Positions 8,978 through 54,416 of a stretch of 54,416 nucleotides of DNA are shown one piece after another. Numbering within the stretch: position 1 is the first letter of the stretch; every line of letters begins with the position of its first letter. Where the stretch lies: assembly GCA_944324285.1 (NCBI GenBank), contig CALUVR010000016.1:1-54416 (forward strand), in the 5' to 3' direction. The stretch comes from Candidatus Gastranaerophilales bacterium (lineage in GTDB: Bacteria; Cyanobacteriota; Vampirovibrionia; Gastranaerophilales; Gastranaerophilaceae). The notes beneath the pieces are model-generated. The model searched no databases and was not told the DNA's origin. It worked only from the letters and a program-made list of their open reading frames with translations. The position numbers were made by a program, and so were the translations under genes.

Positions 8978-9108
8978 AAAATCTCCCAGATTTCCGTGGT
9001 AACATCAACCAAAATAAGCATTCCGACTATAACGGCTGCGGTCCAGTGTGGGAATTTCACCCATGCTTTCCTTAAATTGGTAATTATAATTTTAAGTCGC
9101 ATTTTAAT
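8978..9108 (-). promoter_or_regulatory. Cobalamin riboswitch-like leader of nrdDG
   Basis: On the minus strand the leader reads GGAAAGCATGGGTGAAATTC, then CCACACTGGACCGCAGCCGT, then TATAGTCGGAATGCTTATTT. This matches the cobalamin riboswitch core order: GGTGAAATTCC, an ACTG-like loop, CCGCAGC, and the B12 box AGTCGGAATGC. A following GTTACCACGGAAATCTGGGAG segment leads into the nrdD ribosome binding site, compatible with translational control. Recognition is by motif; a covariance-model search would settle class and boundaries. Confidence 0.82.
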
Positions 9109-43589: not shown

Positions 43590-43970
43590 CAAGTAAAGGA
43601 GGATAAAAAGACTGCCCTCTACAATATGGAGAGGGGATTAGGGTTTACCCCTTTTGTAAAGGGGGATTAAGGGGGATTTTAATAATCTTTACTCCATATT
43701 CATTTTGTCCTTTGTCCCTCACCCTGCGGGAGAGGGCAGGGTGAGGGGGGCTGTATGAAAAGAAATCCCCCTTTACAGGTGGGAAGATTTACCCCCCTCT
43801 CCCCTTGAGGGAGAGGGCAGGGGTGAGGGGTAAAAGGAAACCCTCCGGCGCTAACGCACCACCTCCCTTACAACGGGAGGCAAATGCAGGGTTGCCTTTT
43901 TACAAATTCTATCTCCCTCGTCAAAAGGCTGCGGGCGGAAGGTTTTACCCCCCTTGAAAAGGGGGGGGAC
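43590..43970. repeat. Cluster of G/C-tract and palindromic intergenic repeats
   Basis: No gene is visible between the 43093 gene and folK. The stretch is packed with purine/pyrimidine tracts: GGGGGATTAAGGGGGATTTT, the palindrome CCCTCACCCTGC (43716-43727) with GCAGGGTGAGGG (43736-43747), and a second set CCCCTCTCCCCTTGAGGGAG near 43793-43812. The CCCTCACCCT...AGGGTGAGGG type is found between genes in many bacterial genomes, so this is probably a pile-up of such elements. Repeat units are not evenly spaced. Confidence 0.65.
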
Positions 43971-52357: not shown

Positions 52358-52433
52358 TGGTACTCCCAGGGGAATTCGAATCCCCGTCTACACCGTGAAA
52401 GGGTGTTGTCCTAGGCCTCTAGACGATGGGAGC
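52358..52433 (-). tRNA. tRNA-Glu (anticodon UUC)
   Basis: Minus-strand sequence starts GCTCCCATCGTCTAGAGGCC and continues AGGACA, with anticodon arm ACACCC-TTTCACG-GGTGT-like pairing (CACCCTTTCACGGTG), a GGGGATTCGAATTCCCC T-arm and TGGGAGTACCA at the 3' end, so CCA is encoded. The TTC anticodon and the D-arm are typical of bacterial tRNA-Glu. Confidence 0.96.
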
Positions 52434-52550: not shown

Positions 52551-53421
52551 TTATTTTATAAAATCATTCCAATAATCCTTAGTGTTATCCATAGGATTTT
52601 TATCTATGCTTGCCCAGTAAGCACATCCCATACCGTTTGTGCTATCAGATGATGTCATAGAGCATTCTGTAAATCCATTACTTCCGTTCGCGGCATCCTT
52701 CTTTGTATCCGGATTACCAAGCGGAATTACCCGCCCGTCTTTTGTCGGACGGAATGAAAACATGTCAACGCCAAGCTGGTTTGGTTTCTTGTAATATCCG
52801 TTTATATCAACTGTTATAACTGGACATTTCCCGGTGCCAGCCGGATTTCCATATTCAAAATAAAATGTCCTTTTCTGCATATTCCAGACTGATCCGTCAT
52901 CAAACATAGTTACAGCTGCCGTACTTCCTGTTAGAGTTTTTACCTTATTAATACCTTCATTATCAATATACTCGTTTTTTCCTGCAAAGTATTCTATGAA
53001 TTTTTTTGAAAATTCTTTTGAAGCTTCCATTACAGCTGACCCGCCATCAACAAGCATCCAGTTATATTCACACATATTTAGCCCTTCATCCTTAATAAAC
53101 ATCAGGTTTATCTGCTGTAATTCGCTATAGGTCTTTTTAAATTCAGCTTTTAAAACTTCTTTTCTGTGTTTTGCAATAAGTCCGGGCATTGTCATAGCAG
53201 CTACAATACCTATGATACCGAGGGTTATTAACACTTCCGCTAATGTAAAAGCAGGTTTATAAGGAGGTAAGCAGAAAAAAGTCTGGTTAATTTTTGAATA
53301 AAATTTTGCGGAGATAATTGTTAACTTATGGATTTTGTTTATTAATCCTGGAACTCCGTTCCTTTTGCCTTCAGAAGGTGCCCCCCCCCCCGAAATACAC
53401 TCTCTGTCTAAGTTTTAGCAT
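52551..53421 (-). CDS. Type IV prepilin-like protein with 11-G tract in its leader (frame currently off)
   Basis: The pilin body (about 228 residues in the frame 52551-53234) has PAFTLAEVLITLGIIGIVAA, ITVDINGYYKKPNQLGVDMF and a cysteine-rich C-terminus. The open frame continues upstream with no start codon before a G11 run (minus strand, 53381-53391). A good start sits beyond it: AAAGGAG (53429-53435) seven bases before ATG at 53421, giving MLKLRQRVYF, then Gly codons. With 11 Gs that frame stops after 16 codons (TGA 53371-53373); with 10 or 13 Gs it joins the pilin frame, giving about 289 residues with an unusually long leader (APSEGKRNGVPGLINKIHKL...). A GTG within the signal (53234) is a poor alternative start. 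Confidence 0.78.
53381..53391. repeat. Homopolymer tract (C11 on +, G11 in the prepilin reading frame)
   Basis: Eleven consecutive C residues, the longest homopolymer of G/C in the window, between the ATG at 53421 and the prepilin body. Such tracts change length readily by slippage. Confidence 0.95.
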
Positions 53422-53511
53422 ATATTTACTCCTTTATTCTTTCGCATATATATTTCAAATTTATCATATACTTTAGAATTTTTCAATATTTTCTAATACC
53501 CCTTTGCCCCC

Positions 53512-53540
53512 TTGAAAGATTTTTGTTTTTTATGTAAAAT
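53512..53540 (+). promoter_or_regulatory. Sigma70-type promoter of clpC
   Basis: TTGAAA (53512-53517), a 17-base spacer and TAAAAT (53535-53540), about 35 bases before the start. No CtsR-like operator is evident. Confidence 0.65.
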
Positions 53541-53574
53541 ATATATCATAAAAGAGAGAATAGGAGCTAATTTA

Positions 53575-54416
53575 ATGTTTGAACGTTTTACGGAAAAAGC
53601 CATAAAGGTTATAATGCTTGCTCAGGAAGAGGCGCGCAGACTCGGACATAACTTTGTCGGCACGGAACAGGTTCTTCTGGGACTTATCGGCGAAGGTACC
53701 GGCGTTGCCGCGAAAACCCTTAAATCTATGGGAGTTACCCTGAAAGATGCCAGAGCGGAAGTTGAAAAAATTATCGGCAGAGGCTCAGGCTTTGTCGCAG
53801 TTGAAATTCCGTTCACCCCGAGAGCAAAAAGAGTCCTTGAATTATCCTGGGATGAGGCAAGACAGCTCGGGCATAATTATATCGGGACTGAACACCTGCT
53901 TTTAGGCTTAATTCGTGAAGGCGAAGGTGTTGCCGCAAGGGTTCTCGAGAACCTCGGCGTTGATTTGAATAAAATAAGAAGCAACGTCGTTAAAATGCTC
54001 GGGGAATCAAAACCTCAAACAACAACTTCAGGTTCTTCAAGCTCCTCATCATCTTCATCTAGCGGCGGTAAAACTAAAACGCCGAGTCTTGATGAATTCG
54101 GCAGAGATTTAACTCTTGCCGCTCAGGAACAAAGACTTGACCCTGTTGTCGGCAGAGAAAAAGAAATTGAACGCGTTATTCAAATTCTAGCAAGACGTAC
54201 CAAAAACAACCCTGTCTTAATCGGAGAACCGGGGGTCGGTAAAACCGCTGTTGCGGAAGGGCTTGCCGCAAGAATTGTTAATGCGGAAGTTCCGGATATC
54301 TTAGACGGTAAAAAAGTTATCCAGCTTGATATGGGCTTACTCGTTGCAGGTACTAAATACCGCGGCGAATTTGAAGAACGTTTGAAAAAAATTATGGATG
54401 AAATTCGTCAGGCAGG
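53575..54416 (+). CDS. clpC: ClpC-type AAA+ chaperone, 5' part (cut by the window end)
   Basis: 280 residues visible. Start at ATG 53575 with AGGAG nine bases upstream. The double Clp N-domain is seen as [15 protein letters not shown] and [15 protein letters not shown]; a Ser-rich linker (about ten Ser in a row near residue 155) precedes the first AAA+ module with [18 protein letters not shown] and Walker [10 protein letters not shown] near residue 217. ClpC unfolds substrates for the ClpP protease. The remainder lies outside the window. Confidence 0.96.

Follow-up and report, generated by a model that had tools for sequence, protein, structure and literature searches.

A prepilin gene on the minus strand of the window (the whole 54,416-nucleotide stretch of DNA analysed, from Candidatus Gastranaerophilales bacterium) is very probably phase-variable. 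Comparative evidence supports well a reading in which the length of a G tract in the 5' part of the gene switches its translation, and in which OFF is the default state. The preliminary description had proposed phase variation for this single gene, and the proposal is now supported by the recurrence of the tract, by differences in tract length between paralogues, by linkers that stay in frame, and by purifying selection. The system goes beyond that gene: as the compared genomes, one per species, indicate, it is genome-wide and family-wide, and it also reaches glycan genes.

The prepilin locus in the window

The gene lies in the 52551-53435 region, and its coordinates were read directly. Its parts and its flanks are as follows.

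53458..53486, minus strand: promoter-like site TTGAAA-N17-TAAATT with TG before the -10 (consensus match only)
53429..53435, minus strand: ribosome-binding site AAAGGAG (read directly)
53392..53421, minus strand: pre-tract leader, ATG and nine codons (MLKLRQRVYF); equivalent short leaders precede other tracts in the same genome and in relatives
53381..53391, minus strand: tract of 11 Gs, proposed as the slippage switch; 10 or 13 Gs would bring the gene in frame
53371..53373, minus strand: TGA where the leader frame ends in the assembly (11 Gs)
53250..53380, minus strand: 131-nt linker, open in the pilin frame and with no start codon there; it would belong to the prepilin leader
52551..53249, minus strand: prepilin body with stop, FTLAEVLITLGIIGIVAAMTMP and a 210-residue head (232 codons), supported by Pfam N_methyl, TIGR02532, a pilin-like model and dN/dS
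52358..52433, minus strand: tRNA-Glu(TTC), syntenic flank outside the switch
53512..54414, plus strand: divergently oriented gene of a Clp-family ATPase, truncated where the window ends; syntenic flank outside the switch, conserved in genome G141

The preliminary description had placed the ATG at 53421 and the tract at 53391-53381, where we also find them; the ribosome site is at 53435-53429. At the assembled G11, the leader frame reads MLKLRQRVYFGGGGTF and stops after 16 codons at TGA 53373-53371, again as first described. From the tract as far as TAA 52551 no stop interrupts the pilin frame, and the first ATG, GTG or TTG within it is GTG 53234, inside FTLAEV, in line with the earlier claim that a start codon occurs only within the signal. 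Changing the tract to 10 or 13 Gs does fuse the two frames, yielding a single product of 289 or 290 aa, respectively, while 9 or 12 Gs give only 25 or 26 aa. A 5' coding homopolymer thus sets the frame, open at 10 or 13 and closed at 11 and 12, which is a feature of phase variation by simple-sequence repeats. The pilin itself was correctly recognized, but not its size: the mature pilin, counted from F at 53249, has 232 residues and not 228. A site of the form TTGAAA-N17-TAAAAT stands at the equivalent place upstream of the G141 orthologue.

Runs of at least eight Gs occur twice in the window, giving five overlapping 8-mer matches against a shuffled mean of 0.39, which is not chance. The other run (G8 at 43961) sits in an intergenic repeat at 43935-43970, a C-run/G-run palindrome (CCCCTTGAAAAGGGGGG) unrelated to the switch; the same palindromic intergenic repeats are also seen at loci L028, L037, L041 and L042. 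Elsewhere in the window, an AdoCbl-II (cobalamin) riboswitch at 9008-9090 on the minus strand scores just above threshold.

The encoded protein passes the thresholds of two prepilin families, N_methyl PF07963 (21.6 bits, cut-off 21.2) and TIGR02532 (21.8, cut-off 16.3). An AlphaFold model built from 40 sequences has a helix at residues 3-55 followed by an alpha/beta head, with a mean pLDDT of 81. In structure comparison its best match is PAK pilin, with a weak Z of 3.6, and pilins make up most of the listed chains; the Foldseek match is FimA, with a weak E of 0.22. A prepilin peptidase is encoded in G000, the window's genome (PF06750, E 1.7e-35, contig G000:C11). The prepilin motif and the encoded peptidase together suggest, from what is known of the family, that the leader is removed.

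A model of the switch can be proposed from these parts. Translation would start at ATG 53421 and run through the 10-codon leader into the G run. With 10 or 13 Gs, translation would continue via the linker into the prepilin, and with 11 it would stop after 16 codons. Slippage during replication would alter the G run by one, so that a minority of the cells of a strain would be reversibly ON. The prepilin peptidase would then remove the leader, the glycines encoded by the tract and the linker, and in-frame changes of length would thus not alter the mature pilin. The pilins would presumably be displayed at the cell surface, where they might bring a benefit against phage or host immunity.

Leader-tracts across the genome and the family

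The genome G000 (2.03 Mb, 99% complete) belongs to the Gastranaerophilales, which are non-photosynthetic Cyanobacteriota. It holds 36 tracts of at least 9 Gs, most of which share one position with respect to a start codon. Twenty-two of the 36 come after a ribosome site, an ATG and 9-12 leader codons, MKTIDMTEFHR being a frequent form of the leader; two further leader-tracts are incomplete, one being cut by a contig end (L020) and the other having no ATG (L021). Eighteen of the 22 lead into a prepilin in a single fused frame, and one (L018) precedes a prepilin with a separate start. The other three lead into glycan genes: a GT2-like protein (L012, ON), RgpF (L026, OFF) and GT11 (L019). This genome would thus have about 18 fused prepilin switches, the window locus among them, and glycan genes besides, most of them assembled OFF with ON one G away. 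Prepilin-like genes number 84 in total in G000.

At L036 (G000:C21), a G12 tract lies right behind the signal peptide of a 710-codon protein, which would be open at 10 or 13. This protein has GGA(I/V)xN repeats and matches PF02415 (Chlam_PMP); chlamydial Pmp genes are likewise phase-variable through poly-G. Non-prepilin tract genes encode a GT11 fucosyltransferase type, a GT2-like protein, RgpF, an FkbM methyltransferase and the Pmp-repeat protein, and these functions are typical phase-variable ones. Four other loci of the genome (L010, L011, L017, L035) have G10-G16 tracts away from gene starts, and a leader-like tail (ATAGCTT) precedes those of L010 and L011; the four are possibly cassette remnants.

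The range of the leader-tract was determined with a function-blind pattern (AGGAG, ATG, 18-42 nt, G9) and its reversal as a control. Of the 288 family genomes, 107 contain leader-tract starts; these genomes represent 23 of 41 genera and include 12 of the 13 genomes of the window's genus. A family genome has up to 77 matches, against 0-2 for the reversed pattern. Outside the family there are none in 3 other genomes of the order and none in 10 of the class, and the sample from the rest of the phylum gives ten stray matches in nine genomes against five for the control, so that the pattern is essentially absent there. Across 84,980 species genomes, the informative names among the listed matches to G9 plus FTLAEVLIT are Gastranaerophilales, Melainabacteria, Cyanobacteria SIG and Ca. 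Scatousia, with one exception, a MAG named Fusobacterium sp. CAG:439; other records are uninformatively named. This MAG carries Gastranaerophilales leader-tract-prepilin genes (L078, L085, L086, L140, L145, L174, L179), and its public name is probably wrong.

Most genomes of the window's genus have 60-160 prepilin-like genes; G209 and G158 have only 4 and 6, and almost no tracts. Between different genera, G144:C44:935-985 and G141:C1:668480-668532 are identical from the leader through the tract (AGGAGACGATGAAAAGCTCAATTATAGCTTCAAAACTCAGAC-G), which suggests a recent transfer of the cassette or of its gene.

Tract length, reading frame and selection

Tract lengths vary among close copies. Paralogue pairs were taken at 85% identity or more in the 45-nt flanks on both sides (n=26), and 14 of the 26, including 12 in G042, are unlike in tract length and frame, a count of non-independent trials since paralogues are related by descent. 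G042 has 14 genes in frame (ON), 12 with one G in excess and 4 lacking one, with all three phases found among near-identical copies, and a tandem pair in G048 (L067) has G12 and G10. The 191 fused prepilins have lengths of 9-12 with two exceptions, peaking at 10-11, and 31 of them are in frame as assembled. When lengths were permuted within genomes (5000 trials), a mean of 45.3 ON genes was expected and the minimum was 32; the 31 seen fall below every permutation, meaning that ON is avoided beyond the marginal length and frame distributions, although here too the genes are related by descent and are not independent trials. As far as mutS1 shows, loss of mismatch repair is not the cause of the variation, this gene being present in 191 of 191 genomes searched. 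MutS1 should moreover damp slippage, and this counts against phase variation.

The lengths are at the same time strongly biased. Of 90 tracts in the window's genus, 60 are G11 and 69 are exactly one G too long, most fused genes needing 10. In g7 the shift is the other way, with 18 of 21 tracts at G10 where 11 is needed (one G too few). G123 has tracts at 9-10, mostly needing 11 or 8. G141, which belongs to the window's genus, has G11 in 20 of 26 tracts, and G010 and G198 are likewise uniformly G11. Comparison with relatives, which the preliminary description had called for, gives no single fixed length of 10 or 13: the window gene and its syntenic orthologues in G141, G173 and G048 have G11, G13, G12 and G12, behind different leaders, with orthologue linkers of 133, 76 and 238 nt, respectively, and all four are one G too long.

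Such regularity speaks for constant recoding, in which the DNA tract stays fixed one G off and a fraction of the mRNA (transcriptional slippage) or of the ribosomes (frameshifting) slips, giving a low and steady amount of pilin in every cell. Uniform lengths within a genome, as in G141, G010 and G198, are seemingly not predicted by free slipping, unless the assembly reports the mode of the population, and the directional bias of 69 in 90 is not required by simple random switching; the 18 of 21 tracts one too short in g7 and the four orthologues one too long point the same way. We still consider constant recoding unlikely. The direction differs by lineage and by gene type at the same length, fused genes needing 10 and the leader-ORF genes described below needing 12, and the near-identical cassettes of G042 represent all three phases, a good many being plainly in frame. 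A fixed phase relation between the frames, as in programmed frameshifting or transcriptional slippage, is absent across the G042 copies, the lineages and the gene types. The three phases of G042 led us to reject a fixed programmed frameshift, and it is leaky recoding that is kept as the rival. A modal length specific to each lineage, with ON one base off either way, fits the population-consensus assembly of a switching tract better than it fits recoding in a fixed direction, and we infer that default-OFF phase variation is the better account.

A sequencing or assembly error, already raised in the preliminary description, would mean that the tract really has 10 (or 13) Gs and that the gene, long leader included, is intact. 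Homopolymers are error-prone, but this explanation is very improbable given dozens of independent assemblies: the same one-off lengths recur in dozens of MAGs, which come from several projects and pipelines of different names, unlike lengths stand side by side within one assembly, and errors would need to add Gs in one genus but remove them in another.

Whether the tract is translated can be judged from the linkers. In fused loci with linkers shorter than 60 nt, the pilin frame is open in 136 of 136, against 12 and 28 for the other two frames, and 131 of these 136 linkers have no start codon in that frame. Linkers that are open in frame and lack start codons argue that the tract is translated. 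Some prepilins of relatives do have their own ribosome site and ATG past the tract, and one could imagine that the window gene, too, starts downstream, the tract being an untranslated leader; this is scarcely probable, as the short linkers are always open though nearly all lack a start codon, and it was rejected for the window gene, whose pilin frame has no start codon other than the GTG within FTLAEV.

The OFF genes do not look dead. Among the four OFF orthologues, the pilin bodies have dN/dS values of 0.07-0.15, a sign of purifying selection, and an intact pilin frame is kept in 123 of 125 OFF loci; a never-expressed gene should not look so. The low dN/dS across four species suggests that the window prepilin would be functional when in frame. 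That the 160 of 191 tract prepilins assembled out of frame are decaying pseudogenes is hardly credible in view of these values and frames, and of the short linkers still open in the pilin frame.

Pilin bodies also seem to move. In two syntenic pairs between G000 and G141 (window 52551-53249 and L217; L029 and L260), sliding windows show the body to be 99-100% identical over about 525-675 bp, most flanking windows being about 81-97% identical, in these two cases only. The near-identical stretch starts inside the conserved N-terminal helix or past it, and runs to about the stop. Near-identical bodies within diverged flanks point to a recent transfer of the body under different leaders. The change of leader between G000 and G141 had been considered as a cassette swap, but the sliding identity puts the anomaly in the pilin body (100% identical, against about 81-97% over most of the flanks). 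An exchange of bodies is therefore at least as likely as a swap of cassettes, and the leader difference at the window locus would then have a separate cause.

A second architecture and comparison with known systems

In G010 and G198, two genomes of the window's genus, 65 sampled loci, which are duplicates of one another, have the leader MQKxxIDRI, with G11 in 59. After the tract come a conserved block and then, at about +72 to +90, a hairpin (CCGTG..CACGG); the prepilin that follows has its own ribosome site, and its ATG is at about +145. The window gene, with its single fused frame, is built differently. In the G010/G198 loci, most leader ORFs stop at +18 with 10 Gs and at +11 with 11; with 12 they mostly reach to within about 11 nt of the hairpin or beyond, ending at +61 to +127. 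This gene type thus sits at G11 and needs 12. At least 6 nt complementary to the pilin ribosome site are found in 52 of these 65 duplicated loci against 44 of 1300 shuffled controls, and exactly one phase translates through this anti-ribosome-site element in 47 of the 52. In L244 (G141), the 10-G frame ends ATT CCT CCG TAA across the anti-ribosome-site, and G123 has a strong terminator hairpin in place of that element. A possible -10 box (TAAAAT) lies 3' of the hairpin in 26 of 63 G010/G198 loci.

The pairing of the G010/G198 element shows no covariation, its bases being invariant. Codon-like conservation of the leader ORF was rejected, third positions being the least variable, which indicates that the block is conserved as nucleotides. 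Rfam gives nothing above threshold in the second architecture. Besides L273, L275, L287, L289 and L368-L433 (G010, G198), its loci are L320, L335 and L280 (G123), L018 (G000) and L244 (G141). In the GT11 fucosyltransferase-type gene of the window's genome (L019:1057-1950, minus strand, G000:C3), the ribosome site lies within a hairpin (GCCTCTATTGGAGGC). Only the 11-G leader frame passes through this hairpin, and its stop overlaps the ATG (ATGA), so G11 would here be the coupled, ON state. From the arrangement of its frames and hairpins, the second architecture resembles a phase-variable attenuator.

A wider model can be put forward tentatively, as a real possibility short of an even chance. 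In it, as many as about 77 genes of a genome, chiefly prepilin genes, are each headed by a portable leader-plus-poly-G cassette, which provides family-wide combinatorial variation of the surface. Its modal length would be OFF with ON one slip away. Gating would occur either by frame fusion or by a phase-dependent leader ORF, translation of which would free a separate prepilin gene at its ribosome site or terminator, and bodies would be exchanged between species beneath the cassette.

Poly-G phase variation is best known from host-adapted pathogens. The uncultured gut bacteria of this family, too, probably shuffle the surface proteins shown by each cell through slipping of a G run. With such a system spread over a family of uncultured gut Cyanobacteriota, apparent frameshifts conceal large pilin repertoires in MAGs, which are probably under-annotated. 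Reads over the tracts in existing metagenomes are predicted to show mixed lengths, with an ON fraction that shifts between hosts or time points. If the switching is confirmed, it would suggest strong pressure (phage, immunity, niche adhesion) on bacteria about whose biology hardly anything is known. In the open-access literature (subscription papers and preprints being outside its scope), no paper joining Gastranaerophilales with phase variation was found; one flagellin review mentions both Melainabacteria and phase variation. Nor did we find reported in that literature poly-G switching in this clade, its scale, the giant prepilin focus, the shared leader cassette or the default-OFF bias.

Several known systems are close. 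Antigenic variation of Neisseria pilE anchors pilin variation on a conserved N-terminal part, and the two pilin bodies that are identical between species within diverged flanks recall it, although here a G run lies within the reading frame. Neisseria also switches surface functions by frameshift through slipped G runs in ORFs (PMC5953494, PMC3786947); the likeness is in the switching, while here the pilin genes themselves carry the tract, dozens of them in parallel. In Campylobacter, the number of phase-variable genes per genome ranges over 5-81, and poly-G lengths peak at 9 and 10 (PMC6321876), so neither the mechanism nor the gene count is unprecedented here. Like the Campylobacter phasome, the present system has G runs of about 9-12 in the 5' part of surface-related genes, which would toggle their frame, and counts tens of genes per genome (PMC6321876). 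It differs by belonging to another phylum, by the dominance of one huge prepilin family and by a shared genome-specific leader, and also in that ON is under-represented and MutS1 present. The closest parallel to the second architecture of G010 and G198, and not to the fused gene of the window, is pil1 of Streptococcus gallolyticus, where a GCAGA repeat slips in a leader ORF upstream of the pilus genes and a minority of cells are ON (PMC3894217). The OFF leader stops about 49 bp before a terminator, and the ON leader 4 bp before it or within it (PMC3894217). Unlike pil1, the G010/G198 loci use poly-G and an element complementary to the pilin ribosome site, and they precede type IV-like prepilins, in about 65 sampled copies from two genomes. 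The attenuator form found in these relatives would be an independent counterpart, on a larger scale, of the pil1 mechanism.
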